Assembly (NCBI RefSeq): GCF_016653405.1
Contig: NZ_NHSN01000003.1
Coordinates: 1-52,495, forward strand
DNA from: Halorhodospira halophila
Lineage (GTDB): Bacteria; Pseudomonadota; Gammaproteobacteria; Nitrococcales; Halorhodospiraceae
Reading direction: 5' to 3'
Length of the DNA stretch: 52,495 bases
How positions within the stretch are numbered: the first letter of the stretch is position 1; each line of letters starts with the position of its first letter. This document shows, in pieces, positions 3,159-52,495 of the stretch. The position numbers and the translations under genes are program-made. The notes under the pieces are model-generated. The model was given only the letters and a program-made list of their open reading frames with translations. It searched no databases and was not told the origin of the DNA.

Positions 3159-4840
3159 TGCGCGACCTCATCGCCGGTCTCCAGGCGCAACCCCAAGACC
3201 ACGAACCGATCCAGAGGCGCCCAGGCGGCCAGCACCCGATAAACCCCCTCCGCGAAGAGATACGCCTCACCCGGGTCCCGCCACGGTCGCGGGTCGAGCT
3301 CCAGGACCACATGCAGCCCCGTCTCTACCACGCCCTGCCGAACCCGAACCGTCGGGCGGCAGGTCACATCGCGCAACGCGGCCCGACAGGCCTCGGCCGC
3401 CGCGCTGTTCGGCGCATCCGCCAGAGCAGCGACCAGTTCCAAAATGCCCTCCCGGGTCGCCCATCGTTCCGCATCGCCCCGAATCAGACGGGACAACGCC
3501 TGGAACCGGCCGACCTCCAGAGCGGCCCACTGGAAACGACTCGGCCGCCGCAGGTTGGTCACCGCCACCCCGTCAGGCACCCCCGTCCCCGGCTGCTTGA
3601 CGTCGCCCCGGCCGAGGCAGCGCCGCGGCAGATCGCCGTGCGAATACCGCACCCGGGCCCCGAGCGTACCCGGACCCGCCGGGGCGTCCAGGCGCACGGC
3701 CACATCCTCGCCGCCCCCCTGCTGGCGACGCTGGACCCGGAACATCCCAGTCGGCTCCGGGTCCAGCCCGGATTGCCAGGGCGGTTGATACACATGAACT
3801 CGTCCACTGCTCGCCTCCCGCAAACGCAAGTCGAGCACCTGGTGGACGATGCGGCAGCCAGGGCCATCGGCGTCACTGCACACGCTATAAGGCCCCGGGC
3901 CACCCTCGATCCACTGCGCTTCGGCTTCGGCGGACCCACTGTTGACGGCCGGCAGGCAATTGGCACGCAGCAGCTGCTGCACCCCCGCCGCGGCAGCCGG
4001 CGCAGGCCAGTTCATTTCGCAACGCACCTCCAGGCGCTGACTCCCTGCCGGCAGTTCCACCCCGTCCAACCCCCTCAGTTGGATGAAAGCGAGCAGCGGC
4101 CGGGCCAGAAAGAAACACCGAAAGTGGTCCAGAGCGGCGACGATCGGCTCGCCCGCCCCCGCCTGGACACCCGCCACCGGCCACGGGGTCAGCAGTTCTC
4201 CACCGCCGATGATCCGCCCCGGCTCCCCGTCACCACGGCTAATCCGCACCCGGCGGGTGCCGTGCAGCAGGGCCGCACGCAGGCGCTCCCAGAGACCCGC
4301 CTCGGCGTCGATGAACAGAGGCAGGTTCGCCGGCGGCTCGGGCGCTCCAGCGTCGGCTTTCGAGAATCGAAGCACCAAGCGCACCTCGCTGCCGCCCTCG
4401 TCACCCGGCAACCACTCGGCGCGCTCGACCTCGATGGGTTCGACGGTTCCGGCCGCAAGCGTCACGAAGGGAATCGCCACCCCTTCGGCACACTCGGTGG
4501 CCGACCAAACCTCAGTGTTTCTCGGCAACGCTACGGGCTCGACCACCGCATCATCCGCCGAGAACGCCAGCACCGTGGCGCTGGGCCAGGGCTCGGCCAG
4601 TTCCGGGGCAGCCAGGTGCAGCAGCTGCTGATGGAGATCCTCGACCCCGGCGGCGAGCTCGGCGTGGACACCGGCCGTCAGAAAGGCGACTCCCTCGAGG
4701 AGTCGCTCCACATACGGATCACGATCGTTGGGATCTTCCAAACCGAGCATGCGCGCCTCCGTCGGGAAGGCCCGGGCGAAGGCCGCGCCGGCCTCACTCA
4801 GCCGGCGCATCTCCTGCTCAAACGCACGCCTCAGATCCAT
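3143..4840 (-). CDS. tssF: TssF (ImpG/VasA), T6SS baseplate subunit
   Basis: This 565-residue protein starts with the signature 'EQEMRRLSEAGAAFARAFP' and 'PYVERLLEGVAFLTA', followed by the long all-beta body of ImpG/VasA proteins. It forms the main body of the baseplate wedge with TssG, TssE and TssK. Two in-frame ATGs lie close together at 4846 and 4840. I prefer 4840, because the GGAG motif then sits about 7 bases upstream and the protein begins MDLRRAF, close to the family's usual MD start. It overlaps tssE upstream by 23 bases and tssG downstream by 16 bases. Confidence 0.93.
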   Translation of the reverse strand: MDLRRAFEQEMRRLSEAGAAFARAFPTEARMLGLEDPNDRDPYVERLLEGVAFLTAGVHAELAAGVEDLHQQLLHLAAPELAEPWPSATVLAFSADDAVVEPVALPRNTEVWSATECAEGVAIPFVTLAAGTVEPIEVERAEWLPGDEGGSEVRLVLRFSKADAGAPEPPANLPLFIDAEAGLWERLRAALLHGTRRVRISRGDGEPGRIIGGGELLTPWPVAGVQAGAGEPIVAALDHFRCFFLARPLLAFIQLRGLDGVELPAGSQRLEVRCEMNWPAPAAAAGVQQLLRANCLPAVNSGSAEAEAQWIEGGPGPYSVCSDADGPGCRIVHQVLDLRLREASSGRVHVYQPPWQSGLDPEPTGMFRVQRRQQGGGEDVAVRLDAPAGPGTLGARVRYSHGDLPRRCLGRGDVKQPGTGVPDGVAVTNLRRPSRFQWAALEVGRFQALSRLIRGDAERWATREGILELVAALADAPNSAAAEACRAALRDVTCRPTVRVRQGVVETGLHVVLELDPRPWRDPGEAYLFAEGVYRVLAAWAPLDRFVVLGLRLETGDEVAQWPRS

Positions 4841-5252
4841 CTTCATCTCCGTTCAGCAGATGCACGGCGGCGTTCCCGTCCACCGCCAACTCCAGCGTCA
4901 CCCCATCCCCGCAGTGAAGCTGCGCATACAACCGCAACCCCAGCACGTAGCCCGCATCCACCGGTGCAGGCCACGCCCGGACCGCCACCCTCGCCACACG
5001 CGGCTCATAGCGTGGAACCAGCTCGCGGGCAGCCTCGGCCAGGCACGCAGCGGCACCGTCCAGATCGTGGTAATGCGACGACAGATCCGGCAGACCGTAT
5101 CCGGCCAGGTGCGCCGGGCGACCGCGGCGCGCCCCAAGCAGCCGGAGTATGTGCCGGGCAACACTCGAGCGGCGGTTGTGCCGGCCCGCCCGGGCAGGGC
5201 GGGCCGTGCGCCCGCCGACACCCTCAAGCACATCGAGCAACCCTTCGGTCAC
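4818..5252 (-). CDS. tssE: TssE, gp25-like T6SS baseplate protein
   Basis: This 144-residue protein shows the gp25/TssE core: 'SVARHILRLLGARRG', then 'GLPDLSS', and later 'LVPRYEPRVARVAVRA', in which the arginine-rich strand matches the 'YEPRL' region of T4 gp25. It acts as a lysozyme-like-fold clamp between baseplate wedges and sheath. The start is GTG 5252 with a good GGGAGG site 6 bases upstream. A strong hairpin (5272-5292) separates it from hcp. It overlaps tssF by 23 bases. Confidence 0.9.
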   Translation of the reverse strand: MTEGLLDVLEGVGGRTARPARAGRHNRRSSVARHILRLLGARRGRPAHLAGYGLPDLSSHYHDLDGAAACLAEAARELVPRYEPRVARVAVRAWPAPVDAGYVLGLRLYAQLHCGDGVTLELAVDGNAAVHLLNGDEDGSEACV

Positions 5253-46719: not shown

Positions 46720-47715
46720 TCAGCCACTGCAGCTGGCACCCCCGAGAACGCAGAACTGAGCACAATGGGGATGGTTGAGCGGCACCTCGGTGAAGCTCCC
46801 CACCAGGCTGGAGCCGAGCTCGAAGGCCGGCTCGTAAGGCAGTAGCGTGCACGGCACCACCACCGGCTGCGATGCCCCCTTGCGCTTGATCACCATGCGG
46901 GAGCTCGCGCACATCATCTCGTCGGGACTACGCCCGACCTTCTCCCAGCAGCCCTCCGAGATCTCCGGGGCATCCCGGCTGGCATCCATCTCCGGGAACA
47001 GCACCAGGCGCTCGGGGTCGTGGGCATCGAGCGTGATCCCATGGGCGTCGAACAGGGCCTGGTAGCCCTCGCGCAGGGTCGCTTCCGCCTCCCCGGAGGT
47101 CTGCCGGCCGGCCACATCCACCCGGAAGCCGCTCTCCGAGAGCCACCGCAGGCCGCGGACCATGGGCTCCCACGATCTCGGCCCGCGCTCGGCCTCGTGC
47201 AGATCCTGCCGATAGTGATCGACGGATACGCGCACCGTCAGCTGCTGCCCGTAGCGCTCCCCGATCGTCTGCAGGCGCTCATGGACCTTCATCATCGGCC
47301 TCATGGCGTTGGTCAGCACCAGCGCCTCGTAGCCGCGACCGAGCGTATCCTCCAGGATGGGGATCATGTCCGGATTCATGAACGGCTCCCCGCCGGTGAA
47401 GGCGATGGTCCGGGTGCCGAGGCCCTCGCGCGCGATCTCGTCCAGGTATCCGGCCACCTCACTGGCGCTGAGGTAGACCAGGGCATCATTGCGCGGGGAG
47501 GACTCGATGTAGCAGTTGCGGCAGGCGAGGTTGCACAGGGTCCCGGTGCAGAACCAGAGCGTCTCCAGGCGCTGCAGGCGGACCGAGGCGCGGGGCTGGC
47601 CATCGGCCGTGAACGCCGGGTCGCGGAACTTGCGGGGATCGATCAGGTATCGATCCGCCCCTGAGCCCTCCTCACCCTTGGCTTGCTGCGGCGGCGCCTC
47701 CTCCTCATGGCTCAT
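46720..47715 (-). CDS. Radical SAM protein with C-terminal cysteine cluster, function unassigned
   Basis: This 331-residue protein has the radical SAM cluster 'CNLACRNC' (C61, C65, C68), 'TGGEPFMNPDM', and a later 'VSVDHYRQD'. The C-terminal end has cysteines C318, C322 and C329 ('HCAQFCVLGGASC'), plus earlier single cysteines; these may form an auxiliary iron-sulfur cluster. 'GTRTIAFTGGEPFMNPDMIPIL' follows standard TIM-barrel order. The sequence does not match ArsS or the usual SPASM peptide maturases that I know. The ribosome site GAGGAGG is strong. It lies between convergent TVP38 and an alpha/beta hydrolase upstream in the same orientation (gap 60 bases). Confidence 0.9.
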   Translation of the reverse strand: MSHEEEAPPQQAKGEEGSGADRYLIDPRKFRDPAFTADGQPRASVRLQRLETLWFCTGTLCNLACRNCYIESSPRNDALVYLSASEVAGYLDEIAREGLGTRTIAFTGGEPFMNPDMIPILEDTLGRGYEALVLTNAMRPMMKVHERLQTIGERYGQQLTVRVSVDHYRQDLHEAERGPRSWEPMVRGLRWLSESGFRVDVAGRQTSGEAEATLREGYQALFDAHGITLDAHDPERLVLFPEMDASRDAPEISEGCWEKVGRSPDEMMCASSRMVIKRKGASQPVVVPCTLLPYEPAFELGSSLVGSFTEVPLNHPHCAQFCVLGGASCSG

Positions 47716-48543: not shown

Positions 48544-48680
48544 CCCGTCCCTACCTGTACCGTCCGTATTAAAACACCACTATAACGCCCTTGGTGCCCC
48601 ACGACTCGGGCCGGACCTGCCCAGCTGTCGTTCTACCCAAACGCCCTCACCGTCACATCACACGGGCGCCGGGGCGGTGT

Positions 48681-48709
48681 TTGACACGAACGGCCCGCGC
48701 GCCTATTTT
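48681..48709 (+). promoter_or_regulatory. Putative sigma-70 promoter of the dihydrolipoyl dehydrogenase-like gene
   Basis: TTGACA (48681-48686), a 17-base spacer and TATTTT (48704-48709) lie about 55 bases before ATG 48763. The region is AT-rich relative to its surroundings. It is one of the clearest sigma-70-like promoters in the window. Confidence 0.65.
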
Positions 48710-48762
48710 CTACAATTAAATGGATTTCTTTGCATGCATCTTTAGAGCCGAGGAGGCCTGCA

Positions 48763-50151
48763 ATGACCGATCTCGAGACCGACGTCGCCATCATCGGGGC
48801 GGGTAGCGCCGGACTGCGCGCCTACCGGGCCGCCGCCGCCCATACCGATCGTGTGCTCCTGATCGAGGGCGGAGCGTACGGGACCACCTGCGCCAGCGTC
48901 GGATGCATGCCCAGCAAGCTGCTCATCGCCGCCGCCGACGCCGCCCACACGGCGCACCATGCCGATAGCTTCGGCGTCCACGCCGGCTCAGTCGAGATCA
49001 ACGGCGCCGAGGTGATGGAACGGGTCCGGAACCTGCGGGATCGGTTCGTCAGCGGGGTCGTCGGCAACACCGAGAAGATCCCGGCCGAGCGGCGGATCCA
49101 TGGCTACGCCCGGTTCGAGGACGCGCAGACCCTGCGGCTCGACGACGGGCGGCGGATCCGGGCCGGGCGCACCGTGATCGCCACCGGCTCCCGTCCCAAC
49201 GTGCTGCCGATGTTCAAGGACCTCGGCGACCGGGCCGTGGTCAACGACGATCTCTTCGAGTGGCGCGACCTGCCCGAATCCGTGGTGGTCTTCGGTCCCG
49301 GGGTGATCGGCATGGAACTCGGCCAAGCCCTCCACCGGCTGGGTGTCCGCGTTCGAATCTTCGGGATCGGCGGCTTCCTCGGACCGCTGACCGATCCGCG
49401 CGTCAAGGATGCCGCCGAGGAGATCTTCGGCGACGAGCTGGCCCTGGATACCGATGCACAGGTTGAGTCCTTGCACCGCGAGGGCGATGAGGTCGTGGTC
49501 CGTTTCCGCGACAAGAGCGGAACCGAAGTGGAAGAACGCTTTGCGTACCTGCTCGCCGCCACCGGCCGCCGCCCCAATGTGGACGGCCTCAGCCTCGAGG
49601 CCACAGGGCTGAGGCTAGATGACAACGGCGTGCCGCTCTTCGACCCCTACACCATGCAGTGCGGCGATCAGCCGATCTTCATTGCCGGCGACGCCAACAA
49701 CGAGCACCCGGTCATGCCCGACGCCTTCGACGAGGGCGAGATCGCCGGCACCAACGCGGGCCGCTACCCGAGCGTCGAGCGCGGGCGCCGCCATCCGCCG
49801 ATGAGCATCGTCTTCACCGAGCCCCAGATGGCCCTGGTTGGGGCGCGCTACGCGGACCTGCCCGACACCGATCACGCCGTCGGTGAGCTCGACTACGCTG
49901 CCCAGCCCCGCGCCATCGTCATGGGCGAGAACCACGGGGTCATGCGCCTCTACGGCCGACCCTCCGACGGCGCCTTTTTGGGCGCCGAGGTGCTGGGTCC
50001 ACGTGCCGAGCACCTGGGCCATCTCCTGGCCTGGGCCGTCGATAGCGGCATGACCGTCGAGCGCATGCTCGACCTGCCTTACTACCATCCGGTCCTGGAG
50101 ACAAGCATCCGCAACGCCCTCCACGACCTGCAGCGAAAGATGAAGGCCTGA
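48763..50151 (+). CDS. Dihydrolipoyl dehydrogenase-like flavoprotein disulfide reductase
   Basis: This 462-residue protein has an FAD site ('VAIIGAGSAGLRAY'), the redox pair 'CASVGC' (C43, C48), the NAD(P) site 'VVFGPGVIGMELGQ', 'FIAGDANNEHPVMPDAFDEGEIAG', and the dimer-interface catalytic 'HPVLE' (H442, E446). All reductase residues are intact. It resembles LpdA, but no pyruvate dehydrogenase or glycine cleavage gene is adjacent, so it may act on another disulfide. ATG 48763 follows GAGGAGG. It heads a cluster with the ArsR-rhodanese gene (51-base gap). Confidence 0.85.
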   Translation: MTDLETDVAIIGAGSAGLRAYRAAAAHTDRVLLIEGGAYGTTCASVGCMPSKLLIAAADAAHTAHHADSFGVHAGSVEINGAEVMERVRNLRDRFVSGVVGNTEKIPAERRIHGYARFEDAQTLRLDDGRRIRAGRTVIATGSRPNVLPMFKDLGDRAVVNDDLFEWRDLPESVVVFGPGVIGMELGQALHRLGVRVRIFGIGGFLGPLTDPRVKDAAEEIFGDELALDTDAQVESLHREGDEVVVRFRDKSGTEVEERFAYLLAATGRRPNVDGLSLEATGLRLDDNGVPLFDPYTMQCGDQPIFIAGDANNEHPVMPDAFDEGEIAGTNAGRYPSVERGRRHPPMSIVFTEPQMALVGARYADLPDTDHAVGELDYAAQPRAIVMGENHGVMRLYGRPSDGAFLGAEVLGPRAEHLGHLLAWAVDSGMTVERMLDLPYYHPVLETSIRNALHDLQRKMKA

Positions 50152-50202
50152 GCCGCGCAGCGGCCCCCGCGTCCATGACCCGCAAAAGCTGGAGCGATCG
50201 CC

Positions 50203-50859
50203 ATGGCTGAGCTCGTCAATCAACGCCGCCTGCTGGAGCAACTCGCCGGGATCGGCAAGGCCCTGGGGCATGCCTACCGCCTGGAGCTCCTGGAGCTGCT
50301 GGCCCAGCGCGAGCGCAACGTGGATGAGCTCGCCCGCCTGACCGGCATCCCACTGGCCAGCGTCTCCCAGCACCTCCAGCAGCTGCGGCGCATGGGGCTG
50401 ATCTCGGCGCGCAAGGAGGGAACACGTGTCTACTACACGCTCGCCGATGAGCAGGTCACGGCCCTACTCGGCATGCTGCGCGAGGTAGCGGAGCGCAACC
50501 TCACTGAGGTGCAGCGGATGACCGAGCAGTACTTCCACGACAGCGACGCCCTCGACGCCATCGACTCGACCGAGCTGCTCGAGCGCCTGCGCGCCGGCAT
50601 GGTCACCCTCATCGACGTCCGGCCGCCGGAGGAGTTCGCAGCGGGGCATCTGCCGGGCGCGATCAACATCCCGGCCGAGGAGCTTGAGGCACGCCTCGAT
50701 GAGCTGCCCGCCGAGCAGGAGATCGTCGCCTATTGCCGCGGCCCCTACTGCGCCCTGTCCGTCGAGGCCGTCCGGCGGCTGCGGGCGCAGGGCCGGCAGG
50801 CGTACCGCTTGGAGCAGGGCTTCCCGGAGTGGAAGGCCGAGGGGCTGCCGGTGCAATAG
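50203..50859 (+). CDS. ArsR-family regulator fused to a rhodanese domain
   Basis: This 218-residue protein has an ArsR winged helix (residues 15-90, 'LTGIPLASVSQHLQQLRRMGLISARKEG', recognition helix around 50-62) followed by a rhodanese domain (about 120-218) with the active-site loop 'CRGPYC' (C178, C183). The metal motif 'ELCVCDL' of arsenic-sensing ArsR is replaced by 'ERNVDELA', with no cysteine in the DNA-binding half. So sensing is more likely through sulfane sulfur or redox chemistry at the rhodanese cysteines. It is co-oriented with the lpd-like gene and FmdB-like gene. Confidence 0.93.
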   Translation: MAELVNQRRLLEQLAGIGKALGHAYRLELLELLAQRERNVDELARLTGIPLASVSQHLQQLRRMGLISARKEGTRVYYTLADEQVTALLGMLREVAERNLTEVQRMTEQYFHDSDALDAIDSTELLERLRAGMVTLIDVRPPEEFAAGHLPGAINIPAEELEARLDELPAEQEIVAYCRGPYCALSVEAVRRLRAQGRQAYRLEQGFPEWKAEGLPVQ

Positions 50860-50895
50860 CAGGCCACCCCCACATGCGCATCAAGAGGAGGAGTT

Positions 50896-51135
50896 ATGCC
50901 CACGTACGACTACCGCTGCCCGAGCAACGGGGTCACGCTGGAGGTGCGCCACGGCATGGACGAGTGCGTTCGCACCTGGGGAGAGCTTTGCCGCCTCGCC
51001 GGCCATGACCCCGGCGAGACGCCCGAGGACGCGCCCGTGGAGCGCCTGATCTCAGGGGCCGGCTACATCAGCAGCGCGAGCCGCTCCGAGCCGGAGCCGG
51101 CCGGCGGCTGCTGCGGCGGGGTGTGCGGGCTCTAG
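50896..51135 (+). CDS. FmdB-like zinc ribbon protein with incomplete metal site
   Basis: This 79-residue protein starts 'MPTYDYRCPSNGVTLEVRHGM', as in CxxC_CxxC_SSSS (FmdB-type) proteins, and ends in a Gly/Cys-rich tail ('GGCCGGVCGL'). The normal first CxxC is 'CPSN', and the second knuckle is also not a clear CxxC, so the zinc ribbon appears degenerate. The three tail cysteines could bind metal instead. The ribosome site AGAGGAGG is strong. It lies 36 bases after the ArsR-rhodanese gene and probably shares its transcript. Confidence 0.8.
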   Translation: MPTYDYRCPSNGVTLEVRHGMDECVRTWGELCRLAGHDPGETPEDAPVERLISGAGYISSASRSEPEPAGGCCGGVCGL

Positions 51136-51221
51136 CCGCTCCCGCCGGAGCGAGCGCCGCTAGCCCCGATGATGCGCTGCGGCCGGCCCGGGCCGCACGC
51201 GCACCCCGGGGGATCGGTACG

Positions 51222-51605
51222 CTACTCGGACCGGAGCTCGCGCAGGAGCGCCTCCAGCTCCCCCGCGTGCTCCCGGATCGCGTCCTCGTCGAGGCGCTCG
51301 GAGCCGAGGTGGATCGCCTCGACGTGCTCCGCCATCCGGTCCACGTCGCCCTGGATCCGCTCGACGGCGTTCTCCAGCGTATAGCTCATCTCGTGGATCT
51401 CGTGGAACGCCTCATCCGCGAGCGCATCCGCCGCCAAAAGCTCCTCGAGCCGCTCCTGGCGCTCGGCGAGCAACGTCAGCGCCTCTGCGAGACCCTCCGG
51501 CTCCTCGCCTTCGTAGTGCTGGTGATCATGGCCATTCGCCAGCGCACCCCCGGCAGCCAGCGCCAGGGAGAGCGTGAGGGCCAGGCCGATCATCATCCTG
51601 CTCAT
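51222..51605 (-). CDS. DUF6746 family secreted helical protein
   Basis: This 127-residue protein has a signal peptide ('IGLALTLSLALAAGGALA') and a mature His- and Glu-rich all-helical part that starts 'HDHQHYEGEEPEGLAEAL'. It contains 'MSYTLENAVERI' and 'HLGSERLD', the DUF6746 hallmarks. The N-terminal HDHQH could bind divalent metals. It faces the lpd-ArsR-FmdB genes convergently and is divergent from the DUF6858-like gene. The ribosome site GAGGAGG is strong. No function is known to me. Confidence 0.85.
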   Translation of the reverse strand: MSRMMIGLALTLSLALAAGGALANGHDHQHYEGEEPEGLAEALTLLAERQERLEELLAADALADEAFHEIHEMSYTLENAVERIQGDVDRMAEHVEAIHLGSERLDEDAIREHAGELEALLRELRSE

Positions 51606-51913
51606 GGGTGCAAACCTCCTCTATTCAACCCGCGATCCGGACCGCCACCCGCCTGCTGCTCGCCGGGCAAGCGCCCCGCCGTCTCTGCGACACCACCGAG
51701 ACTGCCCTCGTCAGGCGCGCTTGGCAACAGCCGACGGCCAGCTCATGGCCTCGCCGGCCGGGTTGACAGCGCACGCCCTCTACCACACTCTATTGATTCG
51801 TTGAATATCATTCAATTGGCCGGCACATACAGGGCTGCAGGCGGACGCCCTGGGAGCGGGCGAGGCCCGGGCAGCCCCCGCAGGTGCCGGTCGCACCACG
51901 AGGAGGATCAGAC
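51606..51913. promoter_or_regulatory. Divergent 308-base intergenic region with inverted repeats
   Basis: This gap separates the leftward DUF6746 gene from the rightward DUF6858-like gene. It holds an AT-rich core at about 51763-51830 with TTGACA (51763-51768), the inverted repeat at 51801-51815, and an isolated ATTCAA half-site at 51623-51628. On the minus strand TTGAAT, a 17-base spacer and TAGAGT (51815-51787) could be a promoter for the DUF6746 gene. No additional gene is supported. Confidence 0.6.
51801..51815. promoter_or_regulatory. Candidate ArsR-type operator (inverted repeat)
   Basis: TTGAAT-ATC-ATTCAA is a perfect 6-bp inverted repeat with a 3-base centre. An adjoining ATTC-GTT-GAAT (51796-51806) is also symmetric. 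It overlaps the -35 element of a possible minus-strand promoter. ArsR-family regulators commonly bind such AT-rich inverted repeats, and one is encoded about 950 bases away; the pairing is inferred. Confidence 0.5.
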
Positions 51914-52330
51914 ATGAGCGATCTAGCAAGGACCTGGCTCCAGGACACCTATCCGGTGCGCAGCCTGGAGCTGCCCAAGGGCGGCCGGGGGCCGAGCAAC
52001 GCCGACGATATCGTCGCCGGCCTGCGCAGCCGCATCGACCGTGATGAGCGCGCCGCCTACATCGCCACCTTCGACCACTACGCCCACACCCAGAGCCTGC
52101 CCGACGGCGAGATCGCCGACGAGATCGAGGATGCGAAGAACGTCATCTTCTGCGTCGGCCGGCGCCTGCCCATGGCCCTGGCCCCGGCGCTGCGCCCCCG
52201 CTCCATCGGGGTCGTGGAGCTGCCGGACCGCTTCGTGGTCAGCTTCATGGAGTCGCCGATGCCGCTGGCCAACGAGCTCATGACCCAGTGGCTCCACGAG
52301 CTGGCGGAGGAGGCGGAGCCGGCCTCCTGA
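51914..52330 (+). CDS. Conserved hypothetical protein, DUF6858-like
   Basis: This 138-residue protein begins 'MSDLARTWLQDTYPVRSLELPKGG' and has 'IVAGLRSRIDRDERAAYIATFDHYAHTQSL' and a C-terminal 'FVVSFMESPMPLANELMTQWL'. I believe it belongs to a small family called DUF6858, but I am not certain. It has one cysteine in the middle ('VIFCVGRRLP'), is soluble, and has no catalytic motif. ATG 51914 follows GAGGAGG. Its gene is 70 bases before a membrane transporter start and is probably co-transcribed with it. Confidence 0.75.
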   Translation: MSDLARTWLQDTYPVRSLELPKGGRGPSNADDIVAGLRSRIDRDERAAYIATFDHYAHTQSLPDGEIADEIEDAKNVIFCVGRRLPMALAPALRPRSIGVVELPDRFVVSFMESPMPLANELMTQWLHELAEEAEPAS

Positions 52331-52400
52331 CCGGCCGCCCGCCGCCCGTCCTCCGCCTGCGCCGCCTTCCATTCGCCTGCTGCCAGGGAGGAGCACGACC

Positions 52401-52495
52401 ATGTGGTCCATCCTCTACGCGATCCAGAAGCGCCTGACCTGGGCCATCCCGGCCATGCTGGTCCTGGGCTTCCTCTACGGCGCCCTCCTGCCCTC
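52401..52495 (+). CDS. Membrane protein N-terminus, possible bile acid:sodium symporter / ACR3-like
   Basis: ATG 52401, with AGGGAGGA upstream, opens a frame that runs off the window with 'MWSILYAIQKRLTWAIPAM' and a hydrophobic helix. The amphipathic start and 'AIPAMLVLGFLYG' recall bile acid:sodium symporter family proteins, which include the ACR3 arsenite exporters. With only 31 residues visible the assignment is weak. It is 70 bases after the DUF6858-like gene in the same orientation. Confidence 0.45.
   Translation, partial: MWSILYAIQKRLTWAIPAMLVLGFLYGALLP

Follow-up and report, generated by a model that had tools for sequence, protein, structure and literature searches.

A candidate operator at two adjacent transcription units of Halorhodospira halophila and a possible sulfane-sulfur regulon under an ArsR-rhodanese protein

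Genes and control elements at the contig end

The DNA analysed here (the window) is a stretch of 52,495 nucleotides from Halorhodospira halophila, probably a purple sulfur bacterium, and corresponds to the entire contig C3 (NZ_NHSN01000003.1) of a 2.86-Mb genome that is 99.86% complete. Its last part (Table 1) encodes an Lpd-like disulfide reductase, a regulator with an ArsR domain fused to a rhodanese domain, an FmdB-like protein, a DUF6746 protein, a DUF6858 protein and the start of an SBF/BASS-type transporter; as the window is the whole contig, the transporter gene is truncated after 31 codons by the contig end at 52495. A first-pass annotation, made from the letters alone, had grouped these six genes into one regulated redox or sulfur module, and all six are indeed present. 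Two control regions of this stretch carry a palindrome that is shared with the promoters of ArsR-rhodanese genes, and the two operons behind them probably form one regulon, which lies side by side in this genome.

Table 1. Genes and control elements at the end of the window
Feature	Position	Strand	Basis
Sigma-70-like promoter TTGACA-N17-TATTTT, Lpd/ArsR-rhodanese unit	48681..48709	+	promoter scan
Operator-like palindrome, 7.8 bits (weak), overlaps the -10 element	48706..48727		matrix scan
Lpd-like FAD disulfide reductase (NF004939)	48763..50151	+	profile search
ArsR-rhodanese regulator, 218 aa	50203..50859	+	profile search
Rhodanese loop CRGPYC, Cys178 and Cys183	50734..50751	+	alignment, invariant 54/54
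FmdB-like 79-aa protein, Cys-rich tail	50896..51135	+	profile search, below cut-off
DUF6746 protein, signal-peptide-like start	51222..51605	-	PF20531
Possible -35 element TTGACA for the DUF6858 unit, 23 bases ahead of the operator	51763..51768	+	read by eye; absent from promoter-scan listing
Operator-like palindrome CACTCTATTGATTCGTTGAATA, 20.1 bits	51786..51807		matrix scan
Inverted repeat TTGAAT-ATC-ATTCAA of the first-pass annotation, overlaps the operator	51801..51815		exact in sequence
DUF6858 protein, 138 aa	51914..52330	+	PF21651
SBF/BASS-type transporter, first 31 codons	52401..52495	+	blastn, and PF01758 on relatives

The ArsR half of the regulator is recognised by NF033788 (81.9 bits, cut-off 55) and PF01022 (43.8 bits, cut-off 22) and the rhodanese half by PF00581 (70.1 bits, cut-off 22.2), with Cys178 as the loop cysteine; the BigR model NF040642 gave 44.3 bits at a cut-off of 155. 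The best match in the PDB, to the ArsR half alone, was to the solved ArsR domains 2kko/3gw2 (6.6e-20); their parent protein is presumably the ArsR-rhodanese Rv0324, and we know of no sulfur role for it. A single-sequence structure model of the regulator had a pLDDT of 66.5 and was not used. Regulators of this type were found in 97 of 369 sampled genomes of the class, presumably Gammaproteobacteria, about a quarter. The only conserved cysteines in 54 aligned family members are C178 and C183 of the CRGPxC loop, present in all 54; every other cysteine column is occupied in at most three of the 54 sequences, and the ArsR half has no conserved cysteine (L056 and L167 were left out of this count because of wrong frames; the right frame of L056 shows CRGPYC). 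The two-cysteine loop of the first-pass annotation is thus confirmed and turns out to be invariant across the family.

The Lpd-like protein matches NF004939 with 667 bits (cut-off 435) and has 250 bits for dihydrolipoyl dehydrogenase (TIGR01350), under the cut-off of 408.8, while two canonical lipoamide dehydrogenases encoded elsewhere in the genome (contig C17; 541 and 519 bits) pass this model. It is therefore a surplus disulfide reductase, in agreement with the earlier description as a reductase without its usual complex.

The DUF6858 protein, previously only called DUF6858-like, is a full member of PF21651 (1.2e-48, 164.9 bits, cut-off 27). The residues D54, H55, H58, C80, R94 and R96 are invariant among 21 aligned sequences (the window and 20 of 29 named loci), which suggests a ligand or redox site. 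A structure model of the protein (pLDDT 92.7) gave no Foldseek match at E<=0.001. The top VIA-align match was 7tj1_D (Z 12.5, 2.5 A, 112 residues), an entry whose title refers to a fluoride transporter, and the second was 1q9u, titled DUF302 (Z 12.0, 2.4 A, 109 residues); 1j3m, which we take to be of the DUF302 family too, reached Z 10.2 (2.2 A, 105 residues), and the unrelated KA1 domain follows at Z 9.9. The nearest named fold of the modelled protein is thus DUF302, with a sequence link that lacks confidence: hhalign against eight DUF302 proteins was weak though collinear (probability 3.4%, E 0.013). The nine genomes of the genus yielded no DUF302 gene, and no viral relatives of DUF6858 were found. 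The 29 named loci with DUF6858 include three from Thiobacillus, two from Sedimenticola and one from Sulfurovum, genera known for sulfur oxidation.

Of the remaining genes, DUF6746 is confirmed by PF20531 (1.4e-29, 102.9 bits, cut-off 27) and the transporter start by blastn matches to the starts of the genes of two relatives, G004 and G005; PF01758 was found on relatives of the window transporter. The FmdB-like gene and its Cys-rich tail are present, but the protein stays under both curated cut-offs (PF09723, 23.7 of 34.4 bits; TIGR02605, 25.2 of 31.3 bits) and its first CxxC has no second cysteine, so that the family name stands less firmly than the gene.

A palindromic candidate operator

The palindrome TATTCAA-N8-TTGAATA is found upstream of ArsR-rhodanese genes. 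Its first sign came from dyad counting (16 of 39 regions, against a maximum of 2 in shuffled sequences), and a matrix trained outside the genus exceeds 8 bits in 42 of the 48 regions outside the genus, compared with 1, 0 and 1 regions in three shuffled sets; the six regions without a site are L199, L161, L108, L106, L105 and the second copy in L107. This matrix was then scanned over 13 sources. Among the 52,474 positions of the window, the two operator-like palindromes of Table 1 are the best and the second-best place and mark the DUF6858 promoter and the Lpd/ArsR-rhodanese promoter, respectively; the third-best place scores -0.1 bits.

Sites of varying strength precede the module operons in five relatives. 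In G004, a near relative of the same genus with one contig of 2,678,452 bases, the best places lie upstream of DUF6858 (17.0 bits) and upstream of Lpd (13.8 bits), with a further site of 13.6 bits upstream of a NifX-like gene. The best place in G005, G008, G009 and G001 is before a Trx-led operon (6.2, 8.5, 8.5 and 6.8 bits, respectively); the site of G001, between the divergent ArsR-rhodanese gene and Trx-TrxB-SBF, is weak.

The geometry is similar at both promoters. At the Lpd site, TTGACA starts 25 bases ahead in both the window and G004, and at the DUF6858 site TTGACA or TTGACG stands 23 bases ahead. A promoter scan of 48560-52495 listed one promoter, that of Lpd (shuffle mean 0.2), which is the sole listing of the promoters compared. 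Sites that cover the -10 region are consistent with repression. In the window and in G004, G008 and G009, the FmdB-like gene precedes the DUF6858-side operator and so does not head the genes downstream of that operator; the start codons behind such statements of position are partly inferred.

The first-pass annotation had proposed a different site for the regulator, the inverted repeat TTGAAT-N3-ATTCAA at 51801-51815. The repeat is exactly present, but dyads of 6+6 bases are not unusual in the DUF6858 intergenic stretch (at least as many in 339 of 500 base shuffles), and the exact repeat was found in 5 of 131 loci, all of them copies of the window stretch. The overlapping 22-bp palindrome at 51786-51807 is better supported and takes its place. 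A sequence-only model (R1) had no matches in 12 sources and is probably too short, and operator terms were not found in the available passages of PMC5823870.

As a control, the columns of the matrix were permuted such that the matrices remained palindromic. None of 1500 permuted matrices reached the real score of the window, and none of 1500 reached the summed best scores, either over the seven of the 13 sources that had been chosen for the module-promoter test and the first score control, or over all thirteen in a later score control. In all seven chosen sources, the top match was within a module promoter, in comparison to 5 of 1000 permuted matrices; the intervals for this test were set after the matrix scan. 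Source by source, the real score was reached by 0 (window), 2 (L100), 3 (L055), 11 (L102), 22 (L056) and 43 (L057) of the 1500 matrices. A degenerate pattern, written with the site already known, has 51786-51807 as its only zero-mismatch place in the genome, and three further places, each with one mismatch, have 6.0, 3.4 and 1.9 bits; the pattern matches of G004 are headed by its three module sites, after which comes an unrelated place with 11.6 bits.

A second type of ArsR-rhodanese gene was seen in L005:783-1439 (G000:C2), L101, L102, L103 and L104, with an AhpD-like gene adjoining in four of the five loci. In L102 (9.7 bits) and L103 (2.7 bits) the matrix has its best place immediately before the regulator, in L005 (6.0 bits) and L101 (1.2 bits) its second-best place precedes the AhpD-like gene, and the scan found no site near the second copy in L104. 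All five sequences have a readable box TTGATNNNNATCAA upstream of the regulator, which we take to be FNR-like. Directly upstream of the copy in L005, a strong hairpin (718-758) has perfect arms of 15 bp and a loop of 11 nt, and repeats resembling it by eye are present in L101 and L104.

Gene order in relatives and neighbouring genes

The six genes are not conserved as a unit. Among nine genomes of the genus (own included), full-length ArsR-rhodanese is present in six, DUF6858 in five, DUF6746 in one, an Lpd orthologue with >80% identity in four and an FmdB-like match in seven. In G004, Lpd and ArsR-rhodanese are encoded at 724626-726673, while FmdB, DUF6858 and the transporter start from 228501, with about 0.5 Mb in between. 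The Lpd orthologue has no adjoining ArsR-rhodanese in G001, G002 and G003, and the FmdB-like gene is found without DUF6858 in G002 and G003 and on a separate contig in G005. These data rule out a conserved six-gene module: the grouping was too broad because DUF6746, FmdB-like and Lpd-like are not constant members, and DUF6746 is probably a local insertion outside the core.

What does recur in relatives is the combination of ArsR-rhodanese, transporter and a thiol reductant, joined by DUF6858 in G005, so that a lack of conservation, named by the first-pass annotation as grounds for refutation, applies only in part. There, the genes for Trx, NifX-like, DUF6858, TrxB, the SBF transporter (continuing into an Hsp20 domain), AhpD-like and ArsR-rhodanese follow each other in one direction. 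G008 and G009 each have one contig ending with Trx-DUF6858-SBF start and another ending with SBF end-AhpD-like-ArsR-rhodanese, from which we infer a single operon broken by the contig ends. In G001, ArsR-rhodanese is divergent from Trx-TrxB-SBF and DUF6858 is located elsewhere. Within the genus, all five genomes with DUF6858 have ArsR-rhodanese, in comparison to one of the four others (p=0.048).

Lpd as a general partner of ArsR-rhodanese was rejected: the six flavoproteins encoded near it outside the family have 28.6-31.6% identity to the window protein, and the only one of the six tested, in L177, has NF004991 as its nearest model, below cut-off. Directly upstream of the Lpd gene of G004 lies the remnant of a rhodanese domain, which contains a stop codon (L100:7426-7538, within G004:C1:724419-724532), perhaps the trace of a tandem ArsR-rhodanese duplication. 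The transporter of L056 continues into the Hsp20-like domain in a single open frame (3782-5212, PF00011), and like tails were seen by eye at the ends of L102 and L103.

Neighbours were counted in 55 loci of ArsR-rhodanese (the surroundings of 34 matches were taken) and in 45 loci of DUF6858 (L029 and L041, with no called DUF6858, were left out), with genes called by our own open reading frame script, which gave some wrong frames. Around ArsR-rhodanese, the raw counts are led by a fatty-acid-hydroxylase-family protein (22), DsrE (22) and a VTT-domain protein (17), followed by a flavoprotein disulfide reductase (8), cysteine desulfurase (8), two MFS clusters (7 each), metallo-beta-lactamase (6), TauE-like (5), ArsS (4) and ArsM-like (3); cysteine desulfurase, TauE and the first MFS cluster were named by the look of the sequence. 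One tested member of the VTT cluster is a membrane protein fused to rhodanese (L176:7300-8259). The neighbours of DUF6858 are NifX-like (PF02579; 15), Crp/Fnr-type (9), CydA, CydB, SLAC1 and SBF (8 each), and a sulfide-quinone-reductase-like flavoprotein, a globin-like protein and a PF11783 cytochrome (6 each); CydA, CydB, sulfide-quinone-reductase-like and globin-like are likewise names given by look, and we take PF11783 to be tied to octaheme tetrathionate reductase.

Outside this gene group, the window encodes a radical SAM protein at 46720-47715 on the minus strand (PF04055 above cut-off), which fails all 25 listed NCBIfam models of the 53 matched (best NF049973, 91.9 of 380 bits).

Predicted sulfur response and comparison with known repressors

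The explanation that we prefer, and to which we give an even chance, is a sulfane-sulfur-responsive regulon of two adjacent transcription units under the ArsR-rhodanese protein, with sensing in the fused rhodanese. From the earlier proposal this keeps a unit regulated by ArsR-rhodanese, with a site that overlaps the proposed one and with neighbours of a sulfur type around ArsR-rhodanese as well as DUF6858, and gives up the six-gene scope. In both promoters, ArsR-rhodanese would bind the 22-bp palindrome, which covers or adjoins the -10 region, and thereby act as a repressor. When sulfane sulfur (persulfide, polysulfide or thiosulfate-derived) accumulates, Cys178 of the rhodanese loop would accept a sulfur atom, which Cys183 would resolve or bridge such that the DNA is released; sensing of this kind is likely, judging from the invariant CRGPxC loop and the analogy to SqrR, BigR, HlyU and SoxR. 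The derepressed disulfide reductase, which is Lpd-like in the window and Trx/TrxB in relatives, would remove persulfides and restore the sensor, DUF6858 is perhaps a small binder of sulfur compounds, and the SBF/BASS transporter may export a sulfur anion. DUF6746 would be a passenger and the FmdB-like gene perhaps also, given its position before the DUF6858-side operator. More tentatively, and with a chance that we put clearly below even, ArsR-rhodanese proteins could be a widespread class of repressors with a sulfurtransferase loop as sensor, in which catalysis sets operator binding, and DUF6858 with SBF could be a new sulfur-export unit.

Several results weigh against the sulfane-sulfur regulon. 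Both window promoters are placed on top by 40 of 1000 permuted matrices, as AT-rich promoters attract AT-rich matrices, and the 7.8 bits of the weak Lpd site are reached in the Lpd promoter by 44 of 1500. Six sources are not significant on their own (L005 103, L058 117, L103 162, L106 209, L104 280 and L101 317 of 1500 matrices). The degenerate pattern is rarer than its reversed control in the own genome (4 versus 10) and in G001 (11 versus 15) and equals it in G005 (3 versus 3), with G004 showing the opposite (14 versus 8); since the reversed control is commoner in the own genome, the pattern count alone is no evidence. Single sites outside the module reach 11.6 bits in G004 and 13.7 bits in G005, and DUF6858 of G001 (L054) has no site (best 0.1 bits, reached by 1265 of 1500 permuted matrices). 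Across the class, co-occurrence is weak: ArsR-rhodanese is present in 6 of 12 genomes with DUF6858 and in 91 of 357 others (p=0.065), assuming the same draw of 369 genomes for both counts and with related genomes counted separately. The neighbour figures are raw counts, and arsS (TIGR04167 above cut-off in L177 and L187) and arsM (NF008823 above cut-off in L191) are found near ArsR-rhodanese.

The latter genes lead to a different signal, arsenic or thioarsenic: the CRGPYC dithiol would bind As(III) or take thioarsenate, and the regulon would export or convert arsenic. Among curated models, ACR3 matches the G004 transporter best (1.7e-24), ArsS clusters are near ArsR-rhodanese in 4 and ArsM in 3 of the 55 loci, and the AhpD-like gene by the second regulator copy has the arsenosugar-associated TIGR04169 as its second-best model (56 of 120 bits). 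However, the G004 transporter has 86.8 bits for the ACR3 model TIGR00832, far below the cut-off of 282.8, and no cysteine is shared among ten transporter relatives, seven of which have none at all, while ACR3 arsenite pumps carry an essential cysteine. DsrE and VTT neighbours outnumber those of the ArsS or ArsM type, and the ArsR half of the regulator lacks conserved cysteines. Transporter and neighbour types thus favour sulfur, and arsenic, kept in play by ArsS and ArsM, is unlikely. We rank as marginally less probable a response to general oxidant or disulfide stress, in which peroxide or chlorine would cause the loop cysteines to form a disulfide and thiol reductases to be induced: this would fit the Lpd-like, Trx and TrxB partners, the AhpD-like gene beside the second regulator copy and peroxiredoxin-like clusters (named by look; 3 of 55 and 4 of 45 loci), and the available passages of PMC10509353 place peroxide-sensing ArsR proteins generally near NADH oxidoreductase genes; but peroxidase-type neighbours are few, and the DsrE and rhodanese neighbours, which are more frequent, speak for sulfur. 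Chance neighbourhood of two unrelated operons, joined by rearrangement or assembly and matched because of AT-rich promoters, agrees with the split in G004, the weak Lpd site and the permuted matrices that sometimes hit the same promoters, but is by a narrow margin the least probable, as the real scores exceed all 1500 permutations, both separated G004 loci have sites and the ArsR-rhodanese/SBF/DUF6858 grouping recurs in G005 and fits across contig ends in G008 and G009.

With the sulfane-sulfur regulon, two control regions with the operator mark would tie DUF6858 and the transporter to sulfur chemistry, under a regulator that probably senses reactive sulfur. The analysis yields a candidate operator and a candidate sensing loop, and it places DUF6858 in a functional context for the first time, together with a regulator family that occurs in roughly one in four of the genomes sampled from the class. 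A literature search in a partial library on ArsR with rhodanese, DUF6858 and DUF6746 found no paper, and the fusion was not found in the available passages of PMC9774590 and PMC2621215.

The two domain types of the regulator are also found in Escherichia coli, where an ArsR regulator and a rhodanese, YgaV and YgaP, are paired as separate proteins; here they are fused. YgaV is listed among the sulfane-sulfur sensors in the passages available from PMC12423496. Repressors of the SqrR, BigR, HlyU and SoxR type have two cysteines in the ArsR protein itself, which are bridged by sulfur (PMC12423496, PMC10509353 and PMC9774590, as far as available). The ArsR-rhodanese proteins resemble these and sHdrR in the ArsR fold, in two conserved cysteines and in a regulator located before genes for sulfur handling and transport (same sources), a comparison made on proteins and gene context. 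They differ in that their cysteines are not in the ArsR domain but five residues apart in the CRGPxC loop of the fused rhodanese. By analogy, the family may therefore work like SqrR/BigR-type repressors while being, by cysteine position, no member of that group, and, if this is true, ArsR proteins would have a second chemical route to the sensing of reactive sulfur.

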